Positions 26,429 to 44,161 of a DNA stretch of 64,000 nt are shown in pieces. The DNA is taken from positions 62,001-126,000 of IMG/VR virus record IMGVR_UViG_3300007512_000009. The stretch is one strand, 5' to 3'. Positions within the stretch are counted from its first letter, which is position 1. Each line of letters opens with the position of its first letter. The notes under the pieces were generated by a model. The model saw only the letters and a list, made by a program, of their open reading frames with translations, did not search any database and was not told the DNA's origin. This DNA is from a virus. A program made the translations under genes and the position numbers.

Positions 26429-26451
26429 ATATTCAACATGGAGCAACAAAA

Positions 26452-27141: not shown

Positions 27142-27604
27142 TAAAACAATATATATAGCAGGCCCTATGAGGGGAAAACCAAATTGGAATTATGAAGCGT
27201 TTGACAGGACAGAAAAAATGCTTTCTAAAATGGGTTGGAATGTGGTTAATCCTGCCACACTAGACGAAAATTCTAAAGAAACTCAAGGGTTGCATTGCGA
27301 ACCAGACGAGTTTGACCCAGATAGTAATACCCGCCACAGAGATGTAAATAGAAAGATTATGAAGCGTGATTTGGATGCAATATGCGATAATTGTGATGCC
27401 ATCTATATGTTAGAAGGGTGGCAAATGAGTCAAGGTGCTTGTGCAGAATTTTACTTATCTTGTTCTATTGGTCTAACGATTCTCTATGAAAACACTATTG
27501 ACAAAACCATTTCTGCTGATTTTGAGTATGATGATGGGGTTAAATCTCACACTAACCCTAAGTTACCAACAAAAGAGTGGGATAGGTTCACTAGTCCAAA
27601 ATGA
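27134..27604 (+). CDS. DUF4406 protein, nucleoside deoxyribosyltransferase-like fold
   Basis: A 156-residue protein beginning with a strand-loop YIAGPMRGKPNWNYEAFDRT, then KMGWNVVNPATLDE and, later, RDLDAICDNCDAIYMLEGWQ with a following SQGACAEF motif. This is the DUF4406 family, related in fold to nucleoside 2-deoxyribosyltransferases. A nucleotide-salvage or signalling role is possible but unproven. ATG at 27134 overlaps the gene 45 stop and is preferred over the upstream in-frame start. It sits between clamp and clamp loader genes, and its end overlaps gene 44 by four bases. Confidence 0.8.
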   Translation: MRNKTIYIAGPMRGKPNWNYEAFDRTEKMLSKMGWNVVNPATLDENSKETQGLHCEPDEFDPDSNTRHRDVNRKIMKRDLDAICDNCDAIYMLEGWQMSQGACAEFYLSCSIGLTILYENTIDKTISADFEYDDGVKSHTNPKLPTKEWDRFTSPK

Positions 27605-29200: not shown

Positions 29201-29212
29201 TAATATCTCCAT

Positions 29213-29220
29213 TATACATA
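29213..29220 (+). promoter_or_regulatory. Possible late promoter variant TATACATA before regA
   Basis: The octamer TATACATA, as before genes 22 and 23, lies 36 bases before the regA start in a 56-base gap. Downstream TATAATGGAG provides the ribosome site. Use in late infection would also drive the sugar cassette behind regA, which has no other clear promoter. Confidence 0.4.
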
Positions 29221-29256
29221 AAGGTGTAAATAAGCCGTATATAATGGAGTTTAATA

Positions 29257-29664
29257 ATGGAAGATACAAAAGTCACAGTCGATGACTTAATTGAAATAAC
29301 ATTGGCAACCGACGAAGATTTTCTTAAGGTTAAAGAAACATTAACAAGGATTGGTGTTTCTTCAAGGAAAGAAAATAAACTTTACCAATCATGTCACATT
29401 CTTCATAAAAGAGGAAAATATTACATTGTTCATTTTAAAGAATTGTTTGGGTTGGATGGTTTACCGAGTGACATGTCTGACAACGATATCGCAAGAAGAA
29501 ATACTATTGTAAATCTTTTAGAAGAATGGGAACTGGTTAATATAGTACATAAAGATAAGACCAAAGAACCTATTGCATCAGTAGGTCAGATAAAAATCAT
29601 TTCCCATAGGGATAAATCAGACTGGGAACTAATACCTAAATACCATATAGGTACTAAAAAATAA
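29257..29664 (+). CDS. regA: Translational repressor RegA
   Basis: A 135-residue RNA-binding repressor of early mRNAs. The middle FLKVKETLTRIGVSSRKENK plus LYQSCHILHKRGKYYIVHFK is nearly identical to T4 RegA (122 residues), and the end WELIPKYHIG is also conserved. It has about ten extra residues at the N-terminus. RegA acts at ribosome sites, so leaderless early mRNAs in this genome might escape it; that is my inference. Confidence 0.95.
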   Translation: MEDTKVTVDDLIEITLATDEDFLKVKETLTRIGVSSRKENKLYQSCHILHKRGKYYIVHFKELFGLDGLPSDMSDNDIARRNTIVNLLEEWELVNIVHKDKTKEPIASVGQIKIISHRDKSDWELIPKYHIGTKK

Positions 29665-29680: not shown

Positions 29681-30337
29681 ATGAAAATTGATATTCGTGA
29701 TGTAAGATGTTGTTGGATTAATCTAGATAAAGACAAAAACAACGCTGATGCGATGGTTAAGCAGTTCGAGGATATCGGAATTGAAAACCATGAAAGGTTA
29801 TCTGCTAGAGTCATAGAACCACATGAAGGTGCTGACGTAACAATAAAACACTACAGAGGATGTGCACAGTCCCACATTGATATTTTAGATAATGAAGATA
29901 ATGAATTACCTCTTTTAATTCTAGAAGATGATGCTAAGATTACAGAGGATTTCAACCCAATATTAGAAATTCCAGATAATACAGATGCTGTTTATCTAGG
30001 AACATCCCATGGTGATGGACGTTATCTATCGGTAGATATTGGTGGTGGGTTTGCTAGGATTGGAAAAGTCTTTGCAACTCATGCTATTTTGTACCTAACG
30101 GATAGTTACAGAAAGGCTGTGTCTGAAACAGCAAAAGACATAGTATATAACCACAATACTCCTTTTGATTTGGGTTGTGCCGTTTTACAAACAAAAAATT
30201 TTGTTGTAACACCGCATAAACCTTACTTTTATCAAGCAGATGAAAGGGATAGTGCAAATAAATGGGAAAATCTAACAAAAACTCCCCTTACAATTTTTAA
30301 TCAACTAGGACAACGTATTGAAGACCCACTATTATAA
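29681..30337 (+). CDS. GT25-family glycosyltransferase
   Basis: A 218-residue protein of the glycosyltransferase 25 type (LPS sugar transferases). It shows CCWINLDKDKNNADAM at the N-terminus, then a GCAQSHIDIL motif and LLILEDDAKI, the metal-binding acidic motif. It is the first gene of the 16-gene sugar cassette after regA. The sugar and acceptor cannot be read from sequence. Confidence 0.8.
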   Translation: MKIDIRDVRCCWINLDKDKNNADAMVKQFEDIGIENHERLSARVIEPHEGADVTIKHYRGCAQSHIDILDNEDNELPLLILEDDAKITEDFNPILEIPDNTDAVYLGTSHGDGRYLSVDIGGGFARIGKVFATHAILYLTDSYRKAVSETAKDIVYNHNTPFDLGCAVLQTKNFVVTPHKPYFYQADERDSANKWENLTKTPLTIFNQLGQRIEDPLL

Positions 30338-30340
30338 ATT

Positions 30341-31615
30341 ATGACATATACTAACCCCAAAAATTTATTAAAATTCAACAGGTTTGATGTTGCAGCCAAG
30401 CATTTAATGTTAAAGCATGCACAAAGAGGTTATCAGACCACTTTTGGTCTGAATGTTTATTCAGAACACATTAAAGTGTGGAATGGTTTTAAAGAATATG
30501 ACAACCCAAAAAAGAATAGCCTAGAATCTTATATTAAAGAATTTTTTAAAATCAATGACTCTATAAGAAAAAACGGTTATAATCCTAAATTACCCCCAGT
30601 ACCAATTAATAAAGATGGTTATCTCTTAAACGGTGCACATAGATTAGCAAGTTGTATTCTTAATAATAAAAATATAAATTTTGAAGAAACCGATGACCCT
30701 AAAGCAGGACAGGAAGACTGTACATCTTATTTTTTTAGAAATCTTGGTTTGGATAATAAAATTTGCGATTCAATCGCTTTAGAATATGCTAAACTGAAAG
30801 AAAACTCATTTATTGTAACTTTATTCCCTGCTGCCACGGTTAAGGACAACATTGGTGATATTAGAAGAATAATAATGGAAAACGGAGATGTTGTTTATGA
30901 AAAAGGTGCAATACTTTGTAATCAAGGGCCTCTAAACTTAATTAGACAAATATATGACGGTGAATCTTGGGGTGGTGATTTTAACAATGGTTTTAGTGGA
31001 TTCCGTCTTAAGGAAAATTATTGTTTTTCCCCATCACCCAAAAGTCCAGTTTATGCTTTCCTAGCGGAGTTCGACTCAGTGGAAAAAGCACATGAGGTGA
31101 AAAGACTAATCAGAGATGTCTATGATATTAGCAATCACTCTGTTCACATTAACGACACTCACGAAGAAACGCTAAGACTAGCAAAGGTTTTCTTTAACAA
31201 CAATAGCCTCCACTATCTAAACAATGCGGTTATTCAAAATTATTCTAAATATAACCATCTTATAGGGGAGTTGAAAGATTGGATGGCTAAAAATAAATAT
31301 GATAGTGATGATGTTTGTGTAACTGCTAGTTCGGTTATGTCAGCGTTCGGTATGAGAGAGGGACAAGACCTAGACTATCTTTATGGTGGTAATGTTAAAC
31401 CAATACAAGGTAATCCTCTAATACACGAACATAACAAAGAGATTGATAACTATACCGTTGGTAAAGATGAAATCATGTATAATGATAACAACCATTTTTA
31501 TTTTAATGGTGTTAAGTTTGCAAGCATAGGTGTTATTCACGAATTAAAGAACAAGCGTTCAGAACCCAAAGATATTAGAGATATCGAATTAATGGAAGGT
31601 ATGTTAAAAGTATGA
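30341..31615 (+). CDS. Two-domain protein: ParB-like N-part and nucleotidyltransferase-like C-part
   Basis: A 424-residue protein. Around residues 85-110 the pattern PVPINKDGYLLNGAHRLASC resembles the ParB/sulfiredoxin fold (a strand, then Gly-Ala-His-Arg). The C-terminal 100 residues (about 325-424) contain TASSVMSAFGMREGQDLDYL and then YFYFNGVKFASIGVI followed by EPKDIRDIELM, a pattern I associate with nucleotidyltransferase-like proteins in surface sugar clusters. The assignment is tentative. It overlaps the next gene by four bases. Confidence 0.5.
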   Translation: MTYTNPKNLLKFNRFDVAAKHLMLKHAQRGYQTTFGLNVYSEHIKVWNGFKEYDNPKKNSLESYIKEFFKINDSIRKNGYNPKLPPVPINKDGYLLNGAHRLASCILNNKNINFEETDDPKAGQEDCTSYFFRNLGLDNKICDSIALEYAKLKENSFIVTLFPAATVKDNIGDIRRIIMENGDVVYEKGAILCNQGPLNLIRQIYDGESWGGDFNNGFSGFRLKENYCFSPSPKSPVYAFLAEFDSVEKAHEVKRLIRDVYDISNHSVHINDTHEETLRLAKVFFNNNSLHYLNNAVIQNYSKYNHLIGELKDWMAKNKYDSDDVCVTASSVMSAFGMREGQDLDYLYGGNVKPIQGNPLIHEHNKEIDNYTVGKDEIMYNDNNHFYFNGVKFASIGVIHELKNKRSEPKDIRDIELMEGMLKV

Positions 31616-32475
31616 AAATAGCAATTTGTTTACATGGACTGGCATCAGGATTTAATGATAAAGGTGTACCAGTTTCTTTTGAAGAAGGTATTGAAAGTTT
31701 AAAGCAGAACGTATTTGGTGACCATGATGTGGATATATTTTTTCACACTTGGAGCGAGGATTCAGAAAAAGATTTAATAGAAAAATATAATCCAAAAAGA
31801 CATCTAGTTGAAAAACAAATTATATTTGAACATCCATATGATGTAAGTTCTAGCCAGTATAGTTTTACACCTGATATTCAAACCAAACTTCAAAGCACAT
31901 ACAGTAGATGGTATTCCTTAGATAAGTGCATCAGTTTAAAGAAAGAAGAAGAAGATGCTAATGATTTCAAATACGACTTTGTATTAGCATTAAGATTTGA
32001 TATGGTTTTCTACGATTCTTTCATCAAATTTGAAAATCTAAACCCCAATGTATTCTACGTATCTAACTGGTGGCACAATAGGTTTAACTTTGGTTATAAT
32101 GACCCTTGGTTTATCACTGGTTCAGAAAACGCAGATAAAGTTGGTAACCTATATGATAATATCAATAGTTATCTAGCAGAAGATAGTGATTATGAAAAAT
32201 ACTTAATGTCCCTGAGGGAGATTTCTCCGAGAGAAGCACCCGAACGTGATAGCAAAATTTCAAACCACGGTCTTCTCAGATGGCATGTTAAGACTGATGA
32301 AATTGAATCGGGGTTTATAGGTCTTGAATATAATTCTTGGTCTTTGATTAGAAAAATACCTCATGGTAGAATAAATCCATACTTTCCTAGAGGATTCCCA
32401 TTTCCATTAGACCAACCTTTACCAGAAGATAGAGCGTGTACCCTAGCAGAAGGGCCTAGAGGTGCTGGCTGGTGA
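31612..32475 (+). CDS. Putative glycosyltransferase
   Basis: A 287-residue protein starting with MKIAICLHGLASGF, followed by HDVDIFFHTWSEDSE and YDFVLALRFDMVFY, an order typical of a GT-A-like family in phage and bacterial surface-sugar clusters. WFITGSENADKVGNLYDNI is also characteristic. Catalytic residues are not certain. It overlaps both neighbours by four bases. Confidence 0.62.
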   Translation: MKIAICLHGLASGFNDKGVPVSFEEGIESLKQNVFGDHDVDIFFHTWSEDSEKDLIEKYNPKRHLVEKQIIFEHPYDVSSSQYSFTPDIQTKLQSTYSRWYSLDKCISLKKEEEDANDFKYDFVLALRFDMVFYDSFIKFENLNPNVFYVSNWWHNRFNFGYNDPWFITGSENADKVGNLYDNINSYLAEDSDYEKYLMSLREISPREAPERDSKISNHGLLRWHVKTDEIESGFIGLEYNSWSLIRKIPHGRINPYFPRGFPFPLDQPLPEDRACTLAEGPRGAGW

Positions 32476-33272
32476 GAATAATCATACCAACATGTGACCC
32501 ACACTTGTTCGTACTTAAAGGTTTCTCATATTTTTTTAACAAGTATTGGGGTGATGACTTCAACGTTACGATTCTGGGTTTTAGCGAACCAGACTTCGAA
32601 TTACCTGAGAATTTCGAATTCATATCAATGGCGGATGAACAAGTGGGTAAGGCTAAAGGATGGTCTAACTATGTGTTGGAATATGTTAATTCAATTGATG
32701 ATGAATACTTTATTTTCGGTATTGACGATTTTTGTCTAGCAAGACCTTTAGATAGAGAGTTGTATTATATTTTAGAAAGCATACCCAGTTGGAAAGGTGA
32801 TATGGGGGATAAAATTGGTAGAATAGATTTGCAACCATCTCTACAATATGCAAGGAATCCTAGAGATGTAACAACCTACAAGAAATTCGATGATTTTGAA
32901 ATTATAGAATTAGCACAGAGGTCTACACAAGAATTTATCTATAGAATAACTGGTCAATTTTCTATATGGAATAGAGAATACTTTTTAAAAAATCTTAAAC
33001 CAGACTGGAGTCCACATGATTGGGAACTAATAGGTGGTAAGATGGCAGAAGGTGACGGTTATAAGATTTTAGGTACTAGAGGAAGACACTGTGTGAAGAA
33101 AGTGGAATTAGTTAGTGAGAAACAATACCCAAATAAGATTAATGTGAAGGGTATGAGAAAGGAAGATATAGAAAAAGTCAAGGAAATCTACTCTGATAGA
33201 CCAGAAGAAATAGGTGAATTTAAGGAAGAGTGGCCCTTCGAAAATTGGATTGATATAGTCTATGGAAAATAA
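32472..33272 (+). CDS. Putative glycosyltransferase
   Basis: A 266-residue protein beginning with GTG that overlaps the previous stop. MRIIIPTCDPHLFVLKGFSY and, later, YFIFGIDDFCLARPLD suggest a GT-A fold with an acidic metal-binding loop. YRITGQFSIWNREYFLKNLK fits the acceptor-side part of this type of enzyme. The donor sugar is unknown. Confidence 0.62.
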   Translation: MRIIIPTCDPHLFVLKGFSYFFNKYWGDDFNVTILGFSEPDFELPENFEFISMADEQVGKAKGWSNYVLEYVNSIDDEYFIFGIDDFCLARPLDRELYYILESIPSWKGDMGDKIGRIDLQPSLQYARNPRDVTTYKKFDDFEIIELAQRSTQEFIYRITGQFSIWNREYFLKNLKPDWSPHDWELIGGKMAEGDGYKILGTRGRHCVKKVELVSEKQYPNKINVKGMRKEDIEKVKEIYSDRPEEIGEFKEEWPFENWIDIVYGK

Positions 33273-33276
33273 AATA

Positions 33277-34134
33277 ATGATTGATAAAAATAAGAGATAC
33301 TTAATTACTGGTGCAGCCGGATTTCTGGGTGTAGCATTGTTAGATAGACTGGAAAGTATGGGTGTTACAAATGTGGTCACTGTATCTAGAAATGAAGGTA
33401 AACTAGTTGAGATTGCTCAAAAATATCCATGGTTAGAAATAATTCCAGGCGACATCTCTAACATTCATTGCTTACATAAAGGGTTAAAGGATGTTGATGG
33501 TGTGTTCCACCTTGCGGCATTCAAACACGTTGGTTTAGCAGAAACTCACTGTAGGGAATGTATTGCAAGCAACACCATCGGTTCAATGAACCTGTTAGAC
33601 CTTACAAGGGGCATGGATTTAGATTTTATTATTGGTATTAGCACCGATAAGGCAGCCCAAGTTGTGGGTGTTTATGGTGCATCAAAACTCTTAATGGAGA
33701 GTTTATTCGGTGAATATGAACGAATCAATCCTAACACCAAGTACAGAATCGTACGGTATGGGAATGTGTTGTATTCAACAGGTTCTGTGTTATGCAAATG
33801 GAAAGACCTGCTATCAAATAATGAAGAGGTTATCGTGACAGATGCAGAAGCAACACGTTTCTTTTGGACTAGAGAACAAGCAATCGATTTGATTTTTTCC
33901 TGCTTAGAAAATGCGACTGATACAACACCATATTGTCCAGACATGAAATCAATGAAAATTAGTGATATGCTTAAAGCGATGGCTAACAACTATCTACCTG
34001 AGGGTGGGAAGTTGAAAATTAAAACCATCGGTATACAAAAAGGTGAAAATCTTCATGAAAAGATTTTAGAAGAAGGGCCATATTCAAACGAAGTGGAATT
34101 ATATACGGTATCTGAGATTGAGGATATGGTTTGA
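33277..34134 (+). CDS. Nucleotide-sugar 4,6-dehydratase (CapD/PseB-like)
   Basis: A 285-residue short-chain dehydrogenase-type enzyme. The NAD-binding motif GAAGFLG is near residue 12, and GISTDKAAQVVGVYGASKLL is the CapD/PseB-type active site with the YxxxK pair. Such enzymes make 4-keto-6-deoxy sugars, commonly from UDP-GlcNAc. An aminotransferase (36859) and a cupin epimerase (37991) in the cassette could use the product. I prefer the ATG at 33277 because the family starts near it; one at 33262 is also possible. Confidence 0.82.
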   Translation: MIDKNKRYLITGAAGFLGVALLDRLESMGVTNVVTVSRNEGKLVEIAQKYPWLEIIPGDISNIHCLHKGLKDVDGVFHLAAFKHVGLAETHCRECIASNTIGSMNLLDLTRGMDLDFIIGISTDKAAQVVGVYGASKLLMESLFGEYERINPNTKYRIVRYGNVLYSTGSVLCKWKDLLSNNEEVIVTDAEATRFFWTREQAIDLIFSCLENATDTTPYCPDMKSMKISDMLKAMANNYLPEGGKLKIKTIGIQKGENLHEKILEEGPYSNEVELYTVSEIEDMV

Positions 34135-34760
34135 GAAAATCAAACAAAATAAAAGCAATTTTATATGATTTAGATGGGGTATTGGTTGATGCCTGTGACT
34201 GGCATTATCACTCTTTAAATCGTGCACTGGAAGAAGTTGCCGGTTTCGAAATCAGCAGAGAAGAACATTTAAGCACTTATAATGGTTTACCAACCAAAAA
34301 GAAACTTGCTATGTTGGAAATAACTGGTGACAAAGCAAACCAAGTGTGGGAAAAGAAACAACAATATACTGTAGATGTCATCAATGAGATGGCACACAAT
34401 TTACCACAAAAAAGAAGATTACATGAATTTACTAAAATGTTGGGTATCAAATCTTGTTGTGTAACAAATTCAATCAGAAAAACAGCAGAGTTGATGTTAA
34501 AAAATACTGGACAACTTGAATACATGGATTTTGTTGTTACCAATGAAGATGTTGAAAATAATAAACCAAGCCCAGAATGTTATATACTAGCAATGGGAAA
34601 ACTGGGTTTTCTACCAACTGAGTGTCTTATCGTAGAAGACTCACCTAAAGGAATCGAATCAGCAGAAGCAACAGGGGCATATGTTTTTGAGGTAGATAAC
34701 TCTACGCAGGTTCATTTTAACACAATAAAAAGAGAACTAATGGGAATATTACAACTATGA
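34131..34760 (+). CDS. HAD-family phosphatase (beta-phosphoglucomutase type)
   Basis: A 209-residue HAD hydrolase. AILYDLDGVLVDACDWHYHS holds the nucleophile Asp, CVTNS is motif II, KPSPECY has the motif III Lys, and IVEDSPKGIESAEATG is motif IV. It starts at a TTG within TTGA, overlapping the previous stop. With the nucleotidyltransferase next to it, a role in making or recycling a sugar phosphate before activation is plausible. Confidence 0.82.
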   Translation: MRKSNKIKAILYDLDGVLVDACDWHYHSLNRALEEVAGFEISREEHLSTYNGLPTKKKLAMLEITGDKANQVWEKKQQYTVDVINEMAHNLPQKRRLHEFTKMLGIKSCCVTNSIRKTAELMLKNTGQLEYMDFVVTNEDVENNKPSPECYILAMGKLGFLPTECLIVEDSPKGIESAEATGAYVFEVDNSTQVHFNTIKRELMGILQL

Positions 34761-35467
34761 ATATATTAATACCAATGGCAGGTGAGGGTAGTAGATTTGC
34801 TAAGGAAGGTTACACTTTCCCCAAGCCTTTAATTGATGTGAACGGTAAACCAATGATTCAAGCAGTGGTTGAAAATTTGGATTTCAATGCAAATTATATT
34901 TTTTTAGTAAGAAAAGAACATCTTGAAAAATATGAAGGTCTAGAGGACACATTGAATAGAATCACTAACGGTAGATGTACTATTGTTAAAGTAGATGGCT
35001 TAACAGAAGGTGCAGCCTGTACAGCACTTTTAGCAAAAGAATATATTGATAACGATGAAGATTTGCTAATTGCTAACTCAGACCAAATTATTGAATACTC
35101 ACCAGAGAATTTTAACCTAATGAAGGAATTAACTAGTTTTGATGCTATGGTCTATACTTTCGAAGCGGTACACCCAAAGTGGTCATTTGTTAAAACGAAT
35201 TCTAGAGGTGTAGTAACAGAAGTCGCTGAGAAAAGACCAATATCTAATATTGCAACATGTGGGATATATTGGTATAGAAGGGGTTCTGATTTTGTAAAAT
35301 ATGCAAAACAAATGGTTGAGAAAGATATTCGTGTTAATAACGAATTTTATATCGCTCCAGTTTATAATGAACTTATTCAAGACGGTTATACTCTAGTTCC
35401 TTTTTATGTGCATAGCATGAATGGGATAGGAACACCAGAAGACTTGCGGTCGTTTTTGGAGAAATAA
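34757..35467 (+). CDS. Sugar-phosphate nucleotidyltransferase
   Basis: A 236-residue NTP-transferase. IPMAGEGSRFAKEGYTFPKP is the nucleotide-binding loop, LLIANSDQIIEY carries the metal-binding Asp, and the end GIGTPEDLRSFL is typical. It would couple NTP and a sugar phosphate to form an activated sugar. It overlaps the HAD phosphatase gene by four bases, and a pairing of the two enzymes in one pathway is likely. Confidence 0.85.
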   Translation: MNILIPMAGEGSRFAKEGYTFPKPLIDVNGKPMIQAVVENLDFNANYIFLVRKEHLEKYEGLEDTLNRITNGRCTIVKVDGLTEGAACTALLAKEYIDNDEDLLIANSDQIIEYSPENFNLMKELTSFDAMVYTFEAVHPKWSFVKTNSRGVVTEVAEKRPISNIATCGIYWYRRGSDFVKYAKQMVEKDIRVNNEFYIAPVYNELIQDGYTLVPFYVHSMNGIGTPEDLRSFLEK

Positions 35468-35470
35468 ATT

Positions 35471-35980
35471 ATGGTTAAGTTAATATCACATAGAGGTAAT
35501 TTGAAGGGAAAAAACCCAGATAGGGAGAACCATCCAGACTATATCATGGAGGCCTTGAACAAAGGATATCATGTAGAAGTTGATGTTCACTATAAAGATG
35601 GGGACTTGTATCTTGGACACAATGAACCTAAATATAAAGTAAGACAAAACCTTCTCAGATGTAATAGAATCATCTGTCATGCTAAGGACAAAGAAGCATT
35701 ACAGGTGATGCTAGAAAGTAGTGAAATTCATTGTTTTTGGCATGATGGTGATGACTACACGATAACATCTAATGGTTTAGTTTGGGTGCATCCAACCAAA
35801 GAATTGCTACCCAAATCTGTGTGTGTCTTACCAGAAAATCCTGGCAGTAAATTAAAAGGGATAGAAGACTGTTATGCAATTTGTAGTGACTATATTGAAG
35901 AATTTAGTGGTGAAAAACCAATAGGTGATGTTTTAAGAAGACTTAAGTCTTCTTTTGAAAAAAGTGAAAGTAATGCGTAA
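35471..35980 (+). CDS. Glycerophosphodiesterase-like protein
   Basis: A 169-residue protein with the GDPD-type N-terminal pattern LISHRGNLKGKNPDRENHPD (His-Arg), then HVEVDVHYKDGDLYLGHNEP, giving the expected Glu-Asp and His residues. It is shorter than full GDPD enzymes (about 240), so the C-terminal part of the barrel is reduced. Its substrate in this cassette is unclear; a sugar-phosphate or glycerol-phosphate diester is possible. Confidence 0.7.
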   Translation: MVKLISHRGNLKGKNPDRENHPDYIMEALNKGYHVEVDVHYKDGDLYLGHNEPKYKVRQNLLRCNRIICHAKDKEALQVMLESSEIHCFWHDGDDYTITSNGLVWVHPTKELLPKSVCVLPENPGSKLKGIEDCYAICSDYIEEFSGEKPIGDVLRRLKSSFEKSESNA

Positions 35981-36899
35981 AATTTATTTTGTTCCAAACT
36001 GGGGTTTAACATCAGAGCAAATGGTGGATGATTATAGGAATCAGACGCCTGGCTGTTCAGGAGTTTGGGAAGATATTGAATACACGTTAAATCCTGATGA
36101 AGCAGATTATTTAATCATCCAAGATGAATGCAGTAAAGACTTATGGGATAAGTTTGAACCAGAACAGAGATTATATTTTTCTAGAGAGGCATTAACACCA
36201 AATTCGATAGACAACTTTCCAGAAGATGAATGTCAACATTTTTCATTTTGGGATGAAACTGGGTATCTTTGGACAAAATGGTGGTATCCAAACAGATTTA
36301 GTGGTGGTGTAAATATGACTTATGACGAGTTGGTTGCCCTTGAACCAATGGGTGAAAAATTGTATAATATAAGTTGTATTTTGTCCAACAAAGAAATGTG
36401 TTATGGACATGCAAGAAGAAAAAGATTTGTATTTGAATTTTCATCACGAAAACGACATTTTATGGACATTTATGGTTCTATTCCTTGTAATAATAAAACT
36501 TTAGAAAATGACGATAAAAGAAGCGGTTTATTAAATTATAACTACCATCTTGCATTTGATAACCAAGACAACCTTAAAGATTTCTTCGGTACTCAATTTA
36601 CAGATGCATTATTATGTTGGACAGTACCTATCTTTTGGGGTGGGGGAGATGGAAATAAATACTTCCCAGAGGGGTCTTATGAAACCTTTGATGTCGATAA
36701 CTATGATGAAATTGACAGGATAGTTGATATTGTTGAAAGTGGTGATTACCTTTCAAGACTCCCTGCAATAAAAGAAGCAAGAGAATTAATTTTAAACAAA
36801 TATAACATGTGGCCTACTATCAAGAATGCAATTGATAGTCTAGAAAGTGAGGAAGACTATGAAAGTTCCCCAATTCATGCCGTTCGTGGACTTGACTGA
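35973..36899 (+). CDS. GT10-like (fucosyltransferase-type) glycosyltransferase
   Basis: A 308-residue protein. The C-terminal half has YHLAFDNQDNLKDFFGTQFT followed by DALLCWTVPIFWGG, which is the GT10 donor-binding pattern (Phe-x-x-x-Phe-Asn/Asp-Asn, then a Val-Pro-x-x-x-Gly turn). GT10 enzymes usually move fucose from GDP-fucose. Start ATG 35973 overlaps the previous stop and is preferred over 35955. A 5-residue Asp/Glu cluster precedes the end. Confidence 0.75.
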   Translation: MRKIYFVPNWGLTSEQMVDDYRNQTPGCSGVWEDIEYTLNPDEADYLIIQDECSKDLWDKFEPEQRLYFSREALTPNSIDNFPEDECQHFSFWDETGYLWTKWWYPNRFSGGVNMTYDELVALEPMGEKLYNISCILSNKEMCYGHARRKRFVFEFSSRKRHFMDIYGSIPCNNKTLENDDKRSGLLNYNYHLAFDNQDNLKDFFGTQFTDALLCWTVPIFWGGGDGNKYFPEGSYETFDVDNYDEIDRIVDIVESGDYLSRLPAIKEARELILNKYNMWPTIKNAIDSLESEEDYESSPIHAVRGLD

Positions 36900-37998
36900 T
36901 TACGACGCATTAAAAGAATCTTTTGAAATCAACTGGATTACAGAGGGTCCAAAATCTCATAAATTCAATGAAGAAATTCGTGCGAAGGTAAACACCTATC
37001 ATGGTTCGTTCGCTCCTAACGGAACTCTAGCACTATATCTTGCTCTCAAAGCGTGTGGTATTGGTGAAGGTGATGAGGTTATTGTACCAAATTTCACATT
37101 TATTGCGACAGCAAATGCTGTGGAAATGGTAGGTGCTACTCCAGTGTTTGCTGATATTAACACTTATGATTTTCAGTTAGATGTTGGTGCCTGTGAAGGT
37201 TTGGTTACTGAGAAAACCAAAGCAATTATGCCTGCACATCTATATGGTTTTGCATGCGATATGGATGCAGTTATGGAATTCTCTGAAAGACACGGCATCT
37301 TGGTTATTGAAGACGCAGCCCAGGCACTAGGTGTGGAATGGAAAGGTAAAAGATGTGGTGGTATAGGTGATGTTGGATGTTTCTCGTTCTTCGCTGACAA
37401 AACAATAACAACTGGTGAGGGTGGATTCGTTGCTACCAACAATCCAGTTATACATGAGAAGGTTAAATACCTTAGAAATCAAGGTAGACAAGACAGAGGT
37501 ACGTTCATCCATCCAAAAATTGGTTATAACTTTAGGATGACAGATATCCAAGCATCCCTCGGACTGTCACAACTAAAGAAATTTAACACCATTGTGGAGA
37601 ACAAAACACGAATCCATAAGTTGTATACCGAGTTGCTGAAAGATGTGACTGAGGTAACAGTGGTACAGCCGACAGATGAAATTACTTCATTCATTCCTTT
37701 TAGGGTCGTGTTGACAGTAGACAATGAAAATACCTCAGAAGGGGTTATGAACTATATGAAAGAACATGAAATAGAACCCAGAACATTTTTCTACCCTTTA
37801 CATAAACAACCTTGTTTTAAAAAATATGTAGAAAATGATAAACGATATGAAGGTGATGTTTTCAGAAATTCAAATTATGCTTACGATAGAGGGGTTTGTT
37901 TGCCATCGTTTGCATCAATGACTGAAGACCAAGTGGAGTTTGTTTGTGACACCATTAAATCTTATTATGCTAATAAAAAGGTAACTGTTGATGTATAA
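36859..37998 (+). CDS. DegT/DnrJ/EryC1-type sugar aminotransferase
   Basis: A 379-residue PLP enzyme that puts an amino group on a keto sugar, usually from glutamate. VPNFTFIATANAVEMVGATP, HLYGFACDMDAV, VIEDAAQALGVEW and CFSFFADKTITTGEGG are the family motifs; Lys181 is the likely PLP-binding residue. ATG 36859 has GAGGAAG before it and is chosen over a GTG 12 bases upstream. It overlaps the GT10 gene by 41 bases. Confidence 0.9.
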   Translation: MKVPQFMPFVDLTDYDALKESFEINWITEGPKSHKFNEEIRAKVNTYHGSFAPNGTLALYLALKACGIGEGDEVIVPNFTFIATANAVEMVGATPVFADINTYDFQLDVGACEGLVTEKTKAIMPAHLYGFACDMDAVMEFSERHGILVIEDAAQALGVEWKGKRCGGIGDVGCFSFFADKTITTGEGGFVATNNPVIHEKVKYLRNQGRQDRGTFIHPKIGYNFRMTDIQASLGLSQLKKFNTIVENKTRIHKLYTELLKDVTEVTVVQPTDEITSFIPFRVVLTVDNENTSEGVMNYMKEHEIEPRTFFYPLHKQPCFKKYVENDKRYEGDVFRNSNYAYDRGVCLPSFASMTEDQVEFVCDTIKSYYANKKVTVDV

Positions 37999-38494
37999 AA
38001 TAGATGCTAGTATTACTGAACCAACTTTATTAAAAATCCAGTCGATTTCAGACGATAGGGGTTATTTAATACCAATAACAGATGATATCGACCATGATTT
38101 GTTCCATAGGTGCTATATTGTAAGCGATTATGGTAAAGGAGTCATAAGAGGTCTTCACTATCATAAACTGGAAACGAAAGTGTTTACAATAGTCAATGGG
38201 GCTGCTAAATTTATAACCCTTAAAATTTCGGAAGACATGGCAGACAGAAATGACCCATGTGAAATTTCTGATTTTATAGATGATAACCCAGATAGCGTAC
38301 AAACTTTTGTTTTAAGTAGCAGACATCACGGAGTTTTGGTGATTCCACCTTATTATGCTAATGGTTGGGTAAGTCTAGAAGATAATACCACATTAACTTC
38401 TCTCAGCAATCTTCGTTATGAAGAAGCAATGGATGATGACATTAGAATAGACCCTTATATTGTGTGCGAAGCGTGGGAAACAATAGGTAGATAA
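37991..38494 (+). CDS. RmlC-like cupin, sugar 3,5-epimerase type
   Basis: A 167-residue cupin of the dTDP-4-dehydrorhamnose epimerase type. DDRGYLIPITDD, GVIRGLHYHKLETKVFTIVN and GVLVIPPYYANGWVSLEDNT fit the RmlC fold, with the His of RGLHYH as the likely active base. It would epimerise or isomerise the 4-keto sugar. The stop overlaps the next start by one base. Confidence 0.78.
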   Translation: MYKIDASITEPTLLKIQSISDDRGYLIPITDDIDHDLFHRCYIVSDYGKGVIRGLHYHKLETKVFTIVNGAAKFITLKISEDMADRNDPCEISDFIDDNPDSVQTFVLSSRHHGVLVIPPYYANGWVSLEDNTTLTSLSNLRYEEAMDDDIRIDPYIVCEAWETIGR

Positions 38495-38703
38495 TGTCTT
38501 TTAAAGAAACAAAGACCAGAAGTGTTACTAAAACCATAGTTTGGAGATTAATTGCAATCCTGAACAGTTATTTAATTTTGATTTTAATGATATCGGATAA
38601 ACCAATGCATAATGCTTTATTAATGAATTTAACTGGATTTATTGTTTATTATTTTTACGAAAGAACTTGGGATAAAATTAAAAAAGGAAGGTACGAAGAA
38701 TGA
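38494..38703 (+). CDS. DUF2061-type small membrane protein
   Basis: A 69-residue protein. It shows ETKTRSVTKTIVWRLIAILN followed by a hydrophobic stretch with a second one ending in YERTWDKIKKG. This is the DUF2061 pattern: two membrane helices, with an Arg/Ser-rich N-terminal motif. In bacteria, small proteins of this kind sit in surface-sugar clusters. Overlaps both neighbours. Confidence 0.75.
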   Translation: MSFKETKTRSVTKTIVWRLIAILNSYLILILMISDKPMHNALLMNLTGFIVYYFYERTWDKIKKGRYEE

Positions 38704-39626
38704 AAATACTAGTGACAGGTGGTGCAGGTTACATTGGCAGTATGTTAGTACCAGAACTTTTGAAAGCGGGACATGAAGTGTGCGTTTACGATTCATTGTT
38801 GTTTGGTGGAAATAGCATGCTTCCACATTTTAGAAATTCCAATTTTACTTTTATAAAAGGTGACATTAGGGATACTGGTAAGTTGAAACAATCTGTTAAG
38901 GGTAAGGATGTTATTATTCACTTAGCCGCAATAGTTGGATATCCTGCCTGTGAGCAAGACCACAAAATCACGACAGAAGTAAACTTGGAAGCGACCAAGA
39001 AGTTAGTAGATATGCTTGATAGCAATCAAATAATTTTGTTTGGTTCTACTGGTAGCAACTACGGAAGGGTAGAAGGAGTTTGTACAGAAGAAACACCTTT
39101 AAATCCTCTAAGTCTATATGGCACAACAAAAACTGAAGCAGAGCAGTATATTATGAAAAATTGTAAAGCGGTTGCTTACAGATTTGCTACTGCATTTGGT
39201 CTTTCTCCAAGGTTAAGACTCGACCTTTTAGTTAACGATTTTACTAATAAAGCAATAAATGACAAGTATATTGTTGTTTATGAATCTCATTTTATGAGGA
39301 CTTTTATTCATGTACACGATATAGCAAGGTCTTTTTTATTTGCTTTAAATAATTTAGATAAAATGGTTGGAAACGTGTATAATGTGGGATGCGATACTAT
39401 GAATTTCAGCAAAAGAGAAGTGTGCGAAAAAATTCAAGCAGTTACCCCTTACTTTTTACATTTAGCGGATATCGGTAGTGATGCAGACCAAAGAGATTAT
39501 GTGGTGTCTTACGACAAGATTTCATCTCTTGGATTTGAAGTACATGTTGGGTTAGATGAAGGAATTCAAGAGTTGTCGGATGGAATTAAAGTTATTAAAA
39601 TACAAAACCCCTACGCAAATGTTTGA
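38700..39626 (+). CDS. NAD-dependent sugar epimerase/dehydratase
   Basis: A 308-residue extended short-chain dehydrogenase. GGAGYIGSMLVPELL is the NAD-binding motif, IIHLAAIVGYPACEQ follows, then GSTGSNYGRVEG and SLYGTTKTEAEQYI with the YxxxK pair. RTFIHVHDIARSFLFAL and GNVYNVGCDTMNFSK are typical C-terminal sugar-binding segments. The exact sugar is not decided by sequence. Confidence 0.85.
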   Translation: MKILVTGGAGYIGSMLVPELLKAGHEVCVYDSLLFGGNSMLPHFRNSNFTFIKGDIRDTGKLKQSVKGKDVIIHLAAIVGYPACEQDHKITTEVNLEATKKLVDMLDSNQIILFGSTGSNYGRVEGVCTEETPLNPLSLYGTTKTEAEQYIMKNCKAVAYRFATAFGLSPRLRLDLLVNDFTNKAINDKYIVVYESHFMRTFIHVHDIARSFLFALNNLDKMVGNVYNVGCDTMNFSKREVCEKIQAVTPYFLHLADIGSDADQRDYVVSYDKISSLGFEVHVGLDEGIQELSDGIKVIKIQNPYANV

Positions 39627-40359
39627 AGAAAAATACAAAAATAAAATGGCTGCTATTTATGATTTAATACATGAAAATAAAGATTATAAATCAGAGGTAG
39701 ACTATATAGACCATATTTACAATAGGATTAGTCCTAAAAACAAAGAAGTATTAGATGTTGGTTGTGGTACTGGTAGACATCTGGAAGTGTTTAAAGAATA
39801 TGGATATAACGCTAATGGTGTAGACCCATCAGAAGATATGATAAATGAAGCAAGGAAAAGACTGGGTGAAGATGTTAATTTGGTATGTGGTAATGCTGAT
39901 GACATTAAAGGTAAATTTGATTTAGTTGTTAGTATGTTCAATGTGGTCAATCATGTAACTGGTGAGTATGAAAACCTAGAAAATTTCTTTAAGTCTGTTT
40001 CAAGAAGGCTCAACAAGAAAGGTCTTTTTATATTTGATTGTTTTAACCGTTCTGCTTATGTTAAAGACGCACCTGATAGAATAACTAAGAAATTGATTAA
40101 CGGTGCTACTCTTACGGTAGAACCTAAAACAGATTATTATGAATCCACATTAAATTTGGAATGCAAATATAAAAGTAATAATGAAGAATTTAGTTATGAA
40201 ATTAACCATAAGATATGGCATATTAACACCATAATAGTTGCACTTTTGAAAAGCGGTCTTAGTCCAACCAATATGTACAAACATTTTAAATGTGAAGAAG
40301 CAACTCCAGAAGACTATAAGGTGGTATTTGTTTGTAAGAAAGTGAAGGCCATAAGATGA
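39619..40359 (+). CDS. SAM-dependent methyltransferase (sugar cassette)
   Basis: A 246-residue class I methyltransferase. VLDVGCGTGRHLEVFKEYGY is motif I, GVDPSEDMINEARKRL motif II and FDLVVSMFNVVNHV motif IV. It resembles the methyltransferases that decorate sugars or terminate O-antigens. ATG 39619 overlaps the previous stop by eight bases and is preferred to the longer in-frame start. Confidence 0.82.
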   Translation: MFEEKYKNKMAAIYDLIHENKDYKSEVDYIDHIYNRISPKNKEVLDVGCGTGRHLEVFKEYGYNANGVDPSEDMINEARKRLGEDVNLVCGNADDIKGKFDLVVSMFNVVNHVTGEYENLENFFKSVSRRLNKKGLFIFDCFNRSAYVKDAPDRITKKLINGATLTVEPKTDYYESTLNLECKYKSNNEEFSYEINHKIWHINTIIVALLKSGLSPTNMYKHFKCEEATPEDYKVVFVCKKVKAIR

Positions 40360-41255
40360 AATTTTTAGTTACAGGGGCAGCAGGATTTATAGGTTCACAC
40401 TTGGTAGACACTCTTATTAAAGAAGGTCATAGGGTAATCGCTGTTGATGACGAATCAGCAGACAACAAATTTTATTGGAACAAAAAAGCAACAAATCATA
40501 AAACAAGTGTTAACTGCTATGATTGTTTATTTTATATTATGAAAGATGTAGATGTTGTCTTCCATTTGGCAGCCGAGTCAAGGGTGCAAAAATGTTTGCA
40601 TAATCCGATACAAGCGGCCAAAACCAATGTAGTTGGTATATGCAATGTATTGCAGTCTGCTTCCGATAACGGAGTAAAAAGAGTGGTTTATTCTTCTACA
40701 TCTTCTGCCTATGGTCTTTCAGAGGATGTGCCCAATAAAGAAGATGCTAAGGTAGACTGTATCAACCCATATGCCTCTACTAAGGTAGCAGGTGAACTAC
40801 TATGCAAAAATTACTCCGAGTTGTTTGGTCTAGAAACAGTTATATTTAGATATTTCAACGTGTACGGTGATAGGTCACCAGTCAAAGGTCAATATGCACC
40901 GCTAGTGGGTAGGTTTTTAGACCAACATAAAAAAGGTGAATTATTGACCATTGTACCCGATGGTAGTCAAAGAAGAGATTATATTCATGTTTCTGATGTA
41001 GTTGAAGCAAACATGGTCGCAGGATTCAAGAAAGATATTAACTCTGGTGAAATATATAATGTTGGAACAGGTGTTAACCACTCTGTTTCAGAAATAGCAG
41101 ATATGGTTTCTAACAAACAGAAATGGATTGAACCCAGAGATGGTGAGGCAAAGGAAACCCTTGCAGACATCTATAAGATTAAAAATGATTTAGGTTGGAG
41201 TCCTAAAATAGAACTTAAAAATTGGATTGAAAATCAAATAAGGATTAAGAAATAA
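40356..41255 (+). CDS. UDP-sugar 4-epimerase-like enzyme
   Basis: A 299-residue NAD-dependent epimerase: GAAGFIGSHLVDTLIKEGHR, VDVVFHLAAESRVQKC, VYSSTSSAYG, NPYASTKVAGELL (YxxxK) and FRYFNVYGDRSP followed by RDYIHVSDVVEA. These match the GalE/WbpP-type group. It probably converts gluco and galacto forms of a UDP-sugar. The next gene starts on its last base. Confidence 0.88.
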   Translation: MKFLVTGAAGFIGSHLVDTLIKEGHRVIAVDDESADNKFYWNKKATNHKTSVNCYDCLFYIMKDVDVVFHLAAESRVQKCLHNPIQAAKTNVVGICNVLQSASDNGVKRVVYSSTSSAYGLSEDVPNKEDAKVDCINPYASTKVAGELLCKNYSELFGLETVIFRYFNVYGDRSPVKGQYAPLVGRFLDQHKKGELLTIVPDGSQRRDYIHVSDVVEANMVAGFKKDINSGEIYNVGTGVNHSVSEIADMVSNKQKWIEPRDGEAKETLADIYKIKNDLGWSPKIELKNWIENQIRIKK

Positions 41256-42559
41256 TGCATAAACTGACATTAGCAATGATTGTAAAAAATGAGAACGTTG
41301 ACCATTTTAGGCAGTGTTTGGAATCAGTATCACCATATATTGACTATTATATAATAGCAGATAACGGCTCCACTGACGGAACTCAAGAATTTATTAAAGA
41401 GTTTTTTGATGCTAAAGGTATAGAAGGTGAAGTTCATGACGTACCTTGGGTTGATTTTGGTCATAACAGGTCAGAAGTCCTCTCTATGTGTAAAGGCAAG
41501 GCTCATTACGCACTTATGATAGATGCGGATGACTATATTGAAGGTACTTTAGACCTTGATATGGATAAAATAATTGAAGAAGGTTATCATGGCCACGCAT
41601 TAAGAATCCATAGAGGCGACTTTACTTGGTGGAGAAACCAAATTTTTAAAACGGATGCTGATTGGAAATATGTTGGTGTTCTGCATGAATATGCAGCCTG
41701 TGATGCACCACAACCACATAATTTAGGTAGGATAGACGGTAAATATCATATTGATGCTAGAACTTTAGGTGCTAGAAATAAAAATCATGAAACAGGCGAA
41801 TCACTTGAGGGTATAGAAAAATATTCTAAAGATGCTGAAGTGCTTTTAAGTGCGTTAACTAATCCAGAAGACCCTGCATATGAACCAGACAATTCACGAT
41901 ATCAATTCTACCTAGCACAGTCGTATTTCGACTCTCAACAATGGGAGCAAGCAGAAGAAGCATACTCCCAAAGAGCAAATATGGGTGGGTGGAAAGAAGA
42001 GGTATTTTACTCAGTGTTTAGAACAGCAATTTGCAAATTACTTCAGGAAAAACCATGGCCTGATGCACAAGATACTATGCTCCAAGCATGGAATATTAAA
42101 CCAGATAGGGCAGAACCTCTATACCAAATTGCCAAGGTTCATCGGATGAATGGTAATCCGCATCTTGGTTATTTGTTTGCAAAACAAGCAACTGAAATAC
42201 CTTATCCTAAAGATGACATCCTGTTTATTAGTGATGATGTCTATAAGTGGAAAATTCTGGACGAATTTGCTGCCTCGGCATATTATATCGGTGATTACTA
42301 TAATGGTTATGAGGCAAGTAAAATATTGATAGAGTTGTTAGAGAAGGGAGAAATCCCTGAAGAAAACAGACAAAGATTCTATGATAATATTACTTATTAT
42401 GAATCCGCCATAAAGGAAGAAGATAAAAAGAAAGAAAAATGGCTAAAGGCAAAATCGGAAAAAGAAGAAGAAGAAAGACAAAAGAAACTGCAAAAAACAA
42501 AAAATATGCAAAATAAAAAGAATAAGAAAAAGAAGAAGAAGAAGAAATCTAAAGTATAA
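41255..42559 (+). CDS. GT2 glycosyltransferase with TPR-like C-terminal region
   Basis: A 434-residue protein. Residues 1-175 are a GT2 domain: LAMIVKNENVDHFRQCLESV, IIADNGSTDGTQEF and ALMIDADDYIEG (the acidic metal motif). Residues about 200-390 are helical with TPR-like repeats such as YQFYLAQSYFDSQQWEQAEE. The last 45 residues are almost only Lys, Glu and Gln, ending in a poly-Lys run. It closes the cassette; a late promoter lies over its last codons. Confidence 0.85.
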   Translation: MHKLTLAMIVKNENVDHFRQCLESVSPYIDYYIIADNGSTDGTQEFIKEFFDAKGIEGEVHDVPWVDFGHNRSEVLSMCKGKAHYALMIDADDYIEGTLDLDMDKIIEEGYHGHALRIHRGDFTWWRNQIFKTDADWKYVGVLHEYAACDAPQPHNLGRIDGKYHIDARTLGARNKNHETGESLEGIEKYSKDAEVLLSALTNPEDPAYEPDNSRYQFYLAQSYFDSQQWEQAEEAYSQRANMGGWKEEVFYSVFRTAICKLLQEKPWPDAQDTMLQAWNIKPDRAEPLYQIAKVHRMNGNPHLGYLFAKQATEIPYPKDDILFISDDVYKWKILDEFAASAYYIGDYYNGYEASKILIELLEKGEIPEENRQRFYDNITYYESAIKEEDKKKEKWLKAKSEKEEEERQKKLQKTKNMQNKKNKKKKKKKKSKV

Positions 42560-42562
42560 ATA
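42555..42562 (+). promoter_or_regulatory. Late promoter TATAAATA after the sugar cassette
   Basis: Exact consensus that overlaps the stop of the GT2 gene, 18 bases before the next ATG; ribosome site TAGGAGA. It shows that the following gene is a late, probably virion, gene. Confidence 0.82.
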
Positions 42563-42580: not shown

Positions 42581-43054
42581 ATGGGCAGAGCAGGAAATTA
42601 CGACATTGTAGCAGAGCAGGGTTCAGACTTTTCTCTTTATTTACAATATTTAGAAAATGGCGGGACGGGTGTTACTCTAAATGCATACCAAGCAAGGATG
42701 CAGGTTAGAAGGTCAACAATCGATACTGGGGCTCTTTTATGGGTAACTGGTTCAACGTTAGTAAACTCTTCCACATCCCACACTAGGTCTGTTACTGGTG
42801 GAGGTTCTACTGGAGAATTTACCCCCACTGATGCAACTGCTGACCAAGTACTTGGTACAGGTGGGATAAGGTTAGATGTTTCTTCTGCAGGTGCATCTGG
42901 TACTACAGGTGGAATATTAATTACAATTGGTGCTGATACAATGGCTAATGTACCAATTGGTAGACATATCTACGATTTAGAAATTAATAGCGGGTCTTCA
43001 GCAGAGAAGATTGTCAAAGGTAGATTTGAAGTACAAGGTGAGGTTACTAGATGA
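42581..43054 (+). CDS. Late virion protein, probably fibre- or baseplate-associated
   Basis: A 157-residue protein with an exact late promoter. YDIVAEQGSDFSLYLQYLEN followed by AYQARMQVRRS, and a C-terminus with GRHIYDLEINSGSSAEKIV and VQGEVTR, match a group of structural proteins that recur in T4-like marine phages. Thr/Gly/Ser-rich beta regions lie in the middle. Attachment to fibre or baseplate is likely but not proven. Confidence 0.65.
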   Translation: MGRAGNYDIVAEQGSDFSLYLQYLENGGTGVTLNAYQARMQVRRSTIDTGALLWVTGSTLVNSSTSHTRSVTGGGSTGEFTPTDATADQVLGTGGIRLDVSSAGASGTTGGILITIGADTMANVPIGRHIYDLEINSGSSAEKIVKGRFEVQGEVTR

Positions 43055-43220: not shown

Positions 43221-43817
43221 ATGAGTAAACCTACACTTAGGTACTATAGAACACACGACAACGTAATACCACCAGAAGCAGGAACTGATGAAGCGGCTTG
43301 TTATGATTTGCACTCCCATTTATTTTACACAGAGAAATTTGACGACACTTCACCCAAAAGTTATTCAGATACACCACGTAAAGTAACAATAATTACACCA
43401 GATAATGTTGCATCAACTGTTCTTCCAGTAAAACAACATAGCGGATATCATGGGTCAGAGTCCACTCATACAGTTACAATTCCTGCTCATCATAGAGCAA
43501 TTGTACCAACAGGGATTGTATTTGACATTCCAAAGGGTTATTCTGTCAGACTGCATCCACGTTCAGGGTTATCAATCAACAAAGCATTCATCGTTGCAAA
43601 CTGTGAAGGTATAATTGATTCCGATTATTTTCATGAAATCAAAGCACTCATGGTCAATAATAGCAATAAAGACATTGTTGTCGAACACGGTGATAGGATT
43701 TGCCAAGCAGAAATCGTAAAGTGCATTGAACACACAATTGAAGAAACCTTTGACGAACCGCAACAACGAACAGACAGAGTTGGTGGTCTTGGTAGCACTG
43801 GGGTTAAAACATTATGA
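43221..43817 (+). CDS. dut: dUTPase
   Basis: A 198-residue trimeric-type dUTPase that turns dUTP into dUMP. Motifs in order: AGTDEAACYDL, LHPRSGLSI, NCEGIIDSDY, GDRICQAEI and RVGGLGSTG, the phosphate loop. It is about 50 residues longer than the usual enzyme because of a Ser/Thr/Asp-rich insertion (about residues 35-80). ATG 43221 has a GGAG site; the TTG further up is not used. It overlaps the next gene by four bases. Confidence 0.94.
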   Translation: MSKPTLRYYRTHDNVIPPEAGTDEAACYDLHSHLFYTEKFDDTSPKSYSDTPRKVTIITPDNVASTVLPVKQHSGYHGSESTHTVTIPAHHRAIVPTGIVFDIPKGYSVRLHPRSGLSINKAFIVANCEGIIDSDYFHEIKALMVNNSNKDIVVEHGDRICQAEIVKCIEHTIEETFDEPQQRTDRVGGLGSTGVKTL

Positions 43818-44161
43818 ATCAAGAAAAATTGTTAGAACATCATAAAGAACTTTGTAGTACTGCTTATGAATTGATGAAAAAGAAAAACCACGACTATGCA
43901 GGTAAAGACGGAACTACACCATTTGCAAATTTTGAAAAAGCAGAAATGATGGGTCTTTGTAGTACAGAATCAGGAATGATGGTTAGAATTTTAGACAAAA
44001 TTTCTAGAATTACAACTTATATTGATTCAGGTGAACTAAAGGTAGAAAACGAAGGCTACAATGATGCTGTTATTGACCTAATTAATTACCTTGTTCTGTT
44101 TAGTGGGTATATTAAATCAAAAGAAAAGAAATTGGCTAAATTCCCACTGAGGAATGGTTGA
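43814..44161 (+). CDS. DUF1599 protein (nucleotide modification-associated domain 1)
   Basis: A 115-residue helical protein with KKKNHDYAGKDGTTPFANFE, then GMMVRILDKISRITTYIDSG and NDAVIDLINYLVLFSGYI. This is the DUF1599 family, known from phages that modify or control their nucleotides; its fold is related to MazG-like nucleotide hydrolases. Co-transcribed with dut, which suggests pyrimidine nucleotide work. The stop TGA is part of the -35 of the gene 43 promoter. Confidence 0.82.
   Translation: MNQEKLLEHHKELCSTAYELMKKKNHDYAGKDGTTPFANFEKAEMMGLCSTESGMMVRILDKISRITTYIDSGELKVENEGYNDAVIDLINYLVLFSGYIKSKEKKLAKFPLRNG

Follow-up and report, generated by a model that had tools for sequence, protein, structure and literature searches.

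A sixteen-gene sugar cassette beside regA

We analyzed a 64,000-nucleotide stretch of viral DNA, termed the window, that corresponds to bases 62001-126000 of IMG/VR record IMGVR_UViG_3300007512_000009 (126,210 bases in total). Its most conspicuous element is a cassette of sixteen genes for sugar synthesis and transfer at window positions 29681-42559. The phage lineage is T4-like and of marine type. Its major capsid protein, gp23, matched 2,501 phage records at identities below 60%, and the best matches include Stenotrophomonas phage DLP6, Pelagibacter phage HTVC008M and Methylophilales phage Melnitz. Within the T4-like core around the cassette, regA, the clamp loader gene for gp62 and the dUTPase gene were identified by Pfam; window gene names beyond these three were assigned by eye.

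The cassette consists of sixteen successive open reading frames (ORFs) on the + strand, called C1 to C16. Intergenic gaps within it range from -41 to +3 bp if alternative starts are taken for C10, C11 and C14, and the gaps to the bordering genes are 16 bp (regA to C1) and 21 bp (C16 to D1). An original prediction, made from the sequence alone, had placed a sixteen-gene cassette between regA and a late gene; the sixteen ORFs, the PF01818 match of regA and a late promoter before the next gene all agree with it. In the following rows, GT denotes glycosyltransferase families and PLP pyridoxal phosphate.

29257-29664, +, regA, left border (PF01818, E = 5.6e-45)
29681-30337, +, C1, GT25-like glycosyltransferase (PF01755, 19.4 bits, below the cut-off of 24; phrog_24091, E = 3e-30; phrog_2835, glucosyltransferase, E = 1e-9)
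30341-31615, +, C2, unnamed family with a ParB/sulfiredoxin-like N-domain, NDP-kinase-fold core and nucleotidyltransferase-like C-domain (predicted fold; outer domains weak)
31612-32475, +, C3, putative glycosyltransferase, DUF7796-like (PF25072, 19.3 bits, below the cut-off of 27; phrog_13607, E = 7e-21)
32472-33272, +, C4, GT-A-fold glycosyltransferase (model pLDDT 87.5; VIA Z 14.2 to B4GALNT1, rmsd 3.2, 180 residues)
33262-34134, +, C5, UDP-GlcNAc-type 4,6-dehydratase, PseB/FlaA1-like (PF02719, Polysacc_synt_2, 203 bits; PDB 2gn4, E = 3e-39)
34131-34760, +, C6, HAD phosphatase (PF13419, 106.6 bits)
34757-35467, +, C7, sugar nucleotidyltransferase (PF00483, 40 bits; PDB 4evw, E = 2e-20)
35471-35980, +, C8, GDPD-like protein (phrog_34507, E = 6e-30)
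35955-36899, +, C9, GT10-like glycosyltransferase (PF00852, 33.5 bits)
36847-37998, +, C10, PLP sugar aminotransferase (DegT), probable start ATG at 36859 (PF01041, 367 bits; perosamine synthetase 3bn1, E = 3e-69)
37988-38494, +, C11, RmlC/FdtA-like cupin isomerase or epimerase (PF00908, 38.4 bits; PF05523, 31.1 bits; QdtA 4zu7, E = 9e-8)
38494-38703, +, C12, DUF2061 small membrane protein (PF09834, 24.2 bits; cut-off 23.1)
38700-39626, +, C13, SDR epimerase/dehydratase (PF01370, 126.9 bits)
39556-40359, +, C14, methyltransferase, probable start ATG at 39619 (PF13649, 63.3 bits)
40356-41255, +, C15, SDR epimerase/dehydratase (PF01370, 197.6 bits)
41255-42559, +, C16, GT2 glycosyltransferase with TPR-like region and Lys-rich tail (PF00535, 39.9 bits; phrog_13126 over residues 3-420)
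42555-42562, +, T4-type late promoter TATAAATA, right border (exact match, 26 bp upstream of D1)
42581-43054, +, D1, late gene adjoining the cassette, Ser/Thr-rich (21.7%) and a candidate acceptor (phrog_1084, E = 5e-14; phrog_3304, tail, E = 9e-7)

These matches bear out the families read earlier from the sequence, some of them weakly. Two of the five glycosyltransferase-like genes (C9 and C16) lie above Pfam cut-offs and two (C1 and C3) below them; C3 is a putative transferase, and C4, which has no Pfam or PHROG match, is assigned by its fold. C8 has no match in Pfam or among PDB sequences. Its homologues occur in 16 of 50,697 phage records, every one a Synechococcus phage, and one cyanophage homologue carries the annotation glycerophosphodiester phosphodiesterase.

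The dehydratase, cupin, aminotransferase, nucleotidyltransferase and five glycosyltransferase-type proteins are all supported, and in the alignments that were examined the catalytic residues are conserved. The STDKA...YGA.K stretch of C5 is aligned with and kept in PDB 2gn4, which we take to be the UDP-GlcNAc C6 dehydratase of H. pylori. Likewise, C10 aligns with 3bn1 over the stretch around a conserved lysine, presumably the PLP lysine. Models for pseudaminic or legionaminic acid enzymes scored below cut-off in every case (PseB, 170 of 408 bits, for C5; PseC, 264 of 423.5; LegC, 274 of 420), and a search of the sixteen cassette genes gave no NeuB-family match.

Conservation and selection

The cassette is real and under purifying selection. 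It is not a product of chance, because its order and content recur in other contigs and dN/dS is low for all sixteen genes. The search for the same gene order in other phages, proposed with the original prediction, found C1 to C16 complete and in order in two contigs: 3300008050_005587 (L094), whose proteins are 87-100% identical, and 3300020438_004021 (L095), with identities of 44-88%. A third, 3300009605_000287, carries C1 to C7 in order and then ends. The cassette is preceded by gp44-gp62-regA in all three. Measured against L094, dN/dS is 0.00-0.15 across the sixteen genes and 0.05-0.08 for regA, gp44 and gp45. Because divergence of the cassette from the related contigs parallels that of core genes, it appears to have been inherited in this lineage, rather than freshly acquired.

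More distant contigs hold mosaic versions at the same site, which lies within the replication cluster between regA and dUTPase/gp43. One of these (L102) has the order regA, five genes of ~240 amino acids, C2-C4-C5-C9-C14-C10-C11-C12-C13-C14-C15-C16, dUTPase, a gene resembling nucleotide-modification-associated domain (Nmad) proteins, and gp43. The distance from regA to gp43 is 14.5 kb in our phage versus 1.6-8.9 kb (median 2.7 kb) in the 18 relatives showing both genes, a range from which larger islands are censored since relatives' loci extend at most 10 kb downstream. At least three glycosyltransferase or sugar-gene homologues are present in 6 of 60 other relatives, whose loci end before gp43.

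C2, a family with a predicted nucleoside diphosphate kinase fold

The original prediction called C2 a two-domain protein of unknown family. The family is indeed without a name, and the protein looks three-domain rather than two-domain, with a nucleoside diphosphate kinase (NDK) fold at its core. Neither Pfam, PHROGs nor the 50,697 phage records contain a match to C2; its profile finds nothing among PDB sequences at E ≤ 10, and comparison of 26 aligned members with Pfam at the same threshold revealed no family common to more than two of them. A scan with this 26-member alignment showed that 103 stretches of viral contigs and 34 of bacterial genomes encode a family member, and our analysis covers the best 80 of the viral stretches (79 loci) and 33 bacterial loci. 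The fetched loci contain 134 domain matches, of which 113 are near full length and 93 distinct. Seven residues are invariant in all 93 (Arg14, Asp16, Lys20, Tyr40, Lys58, His100 and Arg101), and His269, Asp343 and Asp345 are kept in 87, 87 and 88 of them, respectively.

In the predicted model (pLDDT 93.7), residues 154-289 adopt the NDK fold (VIA Z 13.6, rmsd 2.7 over 120 residues). All five Foldseek matches at E ≤ 0.001 are NDKs, in a fold search that covered well only residues 154-287. Profile comparison with 16 trimmed NDKs gave E = 1.7e-4 and placed His269 on the NDK catalytic histidine, and comparison with five NDKs gave E = 0.003; off-diagonal controls gave 0.13-0.88. Each of these profile values comes from one comparison, and the comparisons were chosen one after another, so the case for an NDK-like C2 rests more on the fold match.

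C2 thus shares with NDKs a core fold and a catalytic-histidine motif, but differs from them in several respects. It has extra N- and C-domains, and whole-protein comparison with a single NDK gives nothing. The position of the lysine in the NDK motif KPD, which presumably binds nucleotide phosphates, is occupied by Phe162 (in TLFP), as placed by offset from the ends of the alignment range. The N-domain shows a weak likeness to ParB (E = 0.0016, then 0.028, with one ParB set including wrong reading frames). This ParB/sulfiredoxin likeness centers on an NGxHR stretch, and ParB-like rows appear also among the fold-search matches. The C-domain resembles NTP_transf_5, again weakly (E = 0.035, then 0.015).

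Proteins of the giant viruses Mimivirus LCMiAC01, Catovirus and Yasminevirus match most of C2 by fold (E = 8e-15 to 1e-12), and two of these three are annotated as glycosyltransferases. However, they are proteins of eukaryotic viruses with 15-19% identity to C2, and are known here by the fold match only. The C2 family spans T4-like phages, other phages, diverse bacteria and, by fold, giant viruses.

Gene neighborhoods of C2

A recognized glycosyltransferase is fused to C2 or lies within three genes of it in 64 of 69 distinct viral loci, and the fusion partner is a GT2 enzyme in 11 of the 69. The corresponding figure for bacteria, fused or near, is 17 of 32. These counts rest on BLAST or HMM matches to window and seed genes; they miss unrelated glycosyltransferases and score transferase domains within giant proteins, such as that of L130, as misses.

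In bacteria, C2 frequently lies within a giant glycosyltransferase protein (1,200-2,700 amino acids). That of L130 (2,583 amino acids) has GT10, GT2 and TPR domains; that of L134 (2,450 amino acids) has GT10, GT2, a group 1 transferase, an FkbM methyltransferase domain and TPR. Both islands include neighboring homologues of C13 (48% identity) and C10 (51% and 46%). In three further bacterial loci (L136, L140 and L142), C2 is fused to an FkbM methyltransferase domain.

Flagellin was detected by Pfam in the fetched DNA of three bacterial C2 loci, one of which (L143) also has FliD. Flagellin and C2 were then located in the genomes of 24 of the 33 bacterial loci, 19 of which have flagellin. Where the C2 frame exceeds 1,200 amino acids, flagellin lies within 30 kb in seven of nine genomes (at 3.9, 7.2, 9.2, 9.3, 16.7, 18.3 and 28.9 kb); in the remaining two it is at 117 kb or on other contigs. 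NDK and ParB genes used as control places have flagellin within 30 kb in 1 of 38 cases.

A second group of phages with C2 was also observed (L120-L124, L126 and L184-L207). These are not obviously T4-like, their C2 is 34-36% identical, and the gene sits amid many genes for proteins of 190-270 amino acids, at least one of them GT8-like by eye.

Promoters and expression

Two features upstream of the cassette bear on its expression.

26400-26428, +, early sigma70-like promoter with extended -10, before gp45 (TTGACC-N17-TATAAT, 11 of 12 positions)
29207-29249, +, RNA hairpin in the gp62-regA gap (-13.6 kcal/mol, z -2.65; an equally good fold in 4 of 200 shuffles)

The promoter at 26400 is the nearest strong one upstream of the cassette. 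The 126,000 bases scanned contain 17 strong sigma70-like sites, of which 8 are no more than 80 bp upstream of a start, versus a mean of 5.4 sites for 28 permuted controls (near a start, mean 0.5 and maximum 2). Such sites stand before gp45 (26400), dUTPase (43160) and gp43 (44158). The word TATAAATA, which we take to be the T4 late promoter, occurs 23 times in the same bases, and 18 of these sites are within 80 bp upstream of a same-strand start; 55 permuted 8-mers average 3.0 near starts, and none reaches 18. A scan of the cassette interior for both motifs found no strong sigma70-like site and, within 29681-42540, no TATAAATA.

Because early promoters flank the cassette, a late one stands at 42555 and none lies inside, the simplest reading of the sequence is that an early transcript would run from 26400 through gp45-gp44-gp62-regA and the cassette. 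The hairpin before regA might be a RegA operator.

A candidate route for protein glycosylation

The gene kit fits the earlier proposal that an activated amino-deoxy sugar is made and attached. The target was left open in that proposal, and the flagellin context of C2 tilts it toward protein. We tentatively favor, as a candidate, an early-expressed cytosolic protein glycosylation system whose acceptor would most likely be a phage virion protein. Its substrates, order of steps, C2 activity and acceptor are all inferred. C7 would activate a hexose, which C5 would oxidize to a 4-keto-6-deoxy sugar. C11, C13 and C15 might then isomerize, epimerize or reduce the keto sugar, with amination by C10 and methylation by C14. 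A short glycan would be assembled by C1, C3, C4, C9 and C16, and C2 would act on the glycan or its donors, most likely through phosphoryl transfer.

Assembly would take place in the cytosol directly on protein, as in bacterial flagellin-glycosylation islands, and for this reason no flippase or polymerase would be needed. The earlier remark that such genes are lacking held up: the flippase family PF01943 and the Wzy-type polymerase family PF04932 had no match in the 126-kb record, which may be incomplete, and controls worked. A Wzx/Wzy polysaccharide pathway is weakened, if not rejected, by the same result. Candidate acceptors are D1, which ranks third in Ser/Thr content among 122 ORFs, and a fibre-like protein of 744 amino acids (23.3% Ser plus Thr), compared with an ORF median of 12.1%.

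A protein acceptor is favored over lipopolysaccharide (LPS) because the nearest bacterial relatives of C2 sit in a flagellin-island context. Several points weigh against this preference. Shorter bacterial C2 proteins, whose architecture is closest to the phage form, have flagellin within 30 kb in 0 of 10 genomes; the contrast with 7 of 9 has a one-sided chance of ~7e-4, for a split into giant and short proteins that was chosen with the first cases already in view. Flagellin itself (PF00669) has no match in the 126-kb record. The TPR matches of C16 (E = 6e-4 to 1.5e-3) are all below cut-offs (TPR_19, 19.3 bits against 25; ANAPC3, 20.4 against 27.2), and the NDK profile match of C2 disappears with a single E. 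coli NDK, an untrimmed set or a set including wrong reading frames. Moreover, LPS clusters harbor GT25, GT10 and cupin genes just as readily, expression at an early stage suits host-surface editing too, and the host could supply a flippase or ligase.

Protein glycosylation accordingly has a close rival. Early in infection the cassette may instead edit a polysaccharide of the host envelope (LPS O-chain or capsule); such editing would mask receptors against other phages or grazers and proceed through the host's lipid carrier, flippase and ligase. We regard this as a serious, if uncertain, possibility. It is the published reading of LPS-type genes in pelagimyophages (PMC7029224) and cyanophages (PMC9602691). 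The HAD, nucleotidyltransferase and GDPD-like genes also occur in Synechococcus T4-like phages, and the early-type promoter layout and the small membrane protein C12 are consistent with it as well. Against it stand the lack of flippase and polymerase matches in the record, where no ligase was recognized either, and the proximity of the nearest bacterial C2 relatives to flagellin genes.

Two other explanations fare far worse. Without any fixed acceptor, the cassette might yield a soluble or secreted sugar product or feed host metabolism; it encodes several nucleotide-sugar enzymes and no identified acceptor, but five glycosyltransferase-type genes under purifying selection imply transfer to an acceptor, which makes this improbable. 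Least probable of all is a glycan on phage DNA as in T-even phages, for although the lineage is T4-like and a PurZ-like gene (NF038379, 208.9 bits, below the cut-off of 300) hints at modified bases, the record, which may be incomplete, has no match to PF00303 (thymidylate synthase/dCMP hydroxymethylase; a control matched in 9 of 14 genomes), a result that weakens or rejects DNA glucosylation, and the amino-deoxy-sugar and methyl genes exceed the needs of that process.

A bolder proposal concerns C2 itself. It could represent an unnamed, glycosyltransferase-coupled phosphotransferase family, with ParB/sulfiredoxin-like, NDP-kinase-like and nucleotidyltransferase-like domains in a single chain, that adds phosphoryl or phosphodiester groups to cytosolically made, protein-linked glycans and that phages would use to decorate their own virions. 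We consider this proposal unlikely as it stands.

Other genes nearby

D1 has weak homologues (22-27% identity) directly 3' of regA in six relatives (L036, L038, L039, L041, L056 and L063), where the fetched DNA lacks the cassette. A small gene before gp43 (window 43814-44161), kept in that position in L038, L050, L102, L106 and L108, has the look of a nucleotide-modification-associated domain by eye and has no NCBIfam match. A GlnII-type glutamine synthetase (window 50771-51844; 402 bits, cut-off 500) adjoins a gp61 primase-like gene.

The PurZ-like adenylosuccinate synthetase is encoded at record bases 26406-27497 (L003:10406-11497), and its NF038379 score exceeds those of purA models. The protein reads GSTGKGK at the position of GDEGKGK, which we take to be the PurA motif. 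Adenylosuccinate lyase and IMP dehydrogenase are also encoded, and the set takes in window positions 19372-20775 and 62141-63202. Purine-modified phage DNA is possible, given this PurZ-like set and a polymerase that is of B-family type by eye.

Relation to known systems

Sugar cassettes of T4-like phages are already known, and authors usually propose that they alter host LPS. The LPS-type clusters of T4-like cyanophages and pelagimyophages resemble the cassette in having a T4-like core, several glycosyltransferases and nucleotide-sugar genes, and those of cyanophages have the HAD-nucleotidyltransferase-GDPD-like set in common with it. However, pelagimyophage clusters usually lie in the tail-fibre/host-recognition region, whereas this cassette lies between regA and gp43. 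Pelagimyophage sugar clusters outside that region are also reported, so that the placement is common rather than strictly defining (PMC7029224). The cassette also differs from marine T4-like LPS-type clusters in including C2, given its lack of matches in the phage records. In the open-licence PMC literature, we found neither the regA-gp43 placement, the conserved sixteen-gene form nor the association of C2 with glycosyltransferases, and no paper that could be tied to C2 or to the regA-gp43 site.

Cytoplasmic O-glycosylation of flagellin by a TPR-glycosyltransferase protein is established and requires no flippase or polymerase (PMC7591256), and enterobacterial flagellin islands include transferases of the GT2, GT25 or GT41 families alongside DegT aminotransferases and methyltransferases, among them FkbM (PMC4875605). 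Virion glycosylation has been reported for mycobacteriophages (cited in PMC12619734). The bacterial loci L130, L131, L134 and L143 each share with the cassette a part of the content made up of C2, GT10, GT2 with TPR, an aminotransferase, an epimerase and a methyltransferase. The phage genes, by contrast, are single-domain or simple fusions rather than proteins of 1,200-2,700 amino acids. Because the record has no flagellin, we do not class the cassette as a flagellin glycosylation island, although its mode of action may be similar.

Sugar cassettes in phages tend to be labeled "LPS genes" on the strength of resemblance, and tests of the acceptor are rare. A conserved cassette with C2 offers a concrete alternative, namely that proteins, possibly those of virions, are glycosylated in the cytosol. 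One biochemical assay of C2 would be enough to annotate well over a hundred loci.

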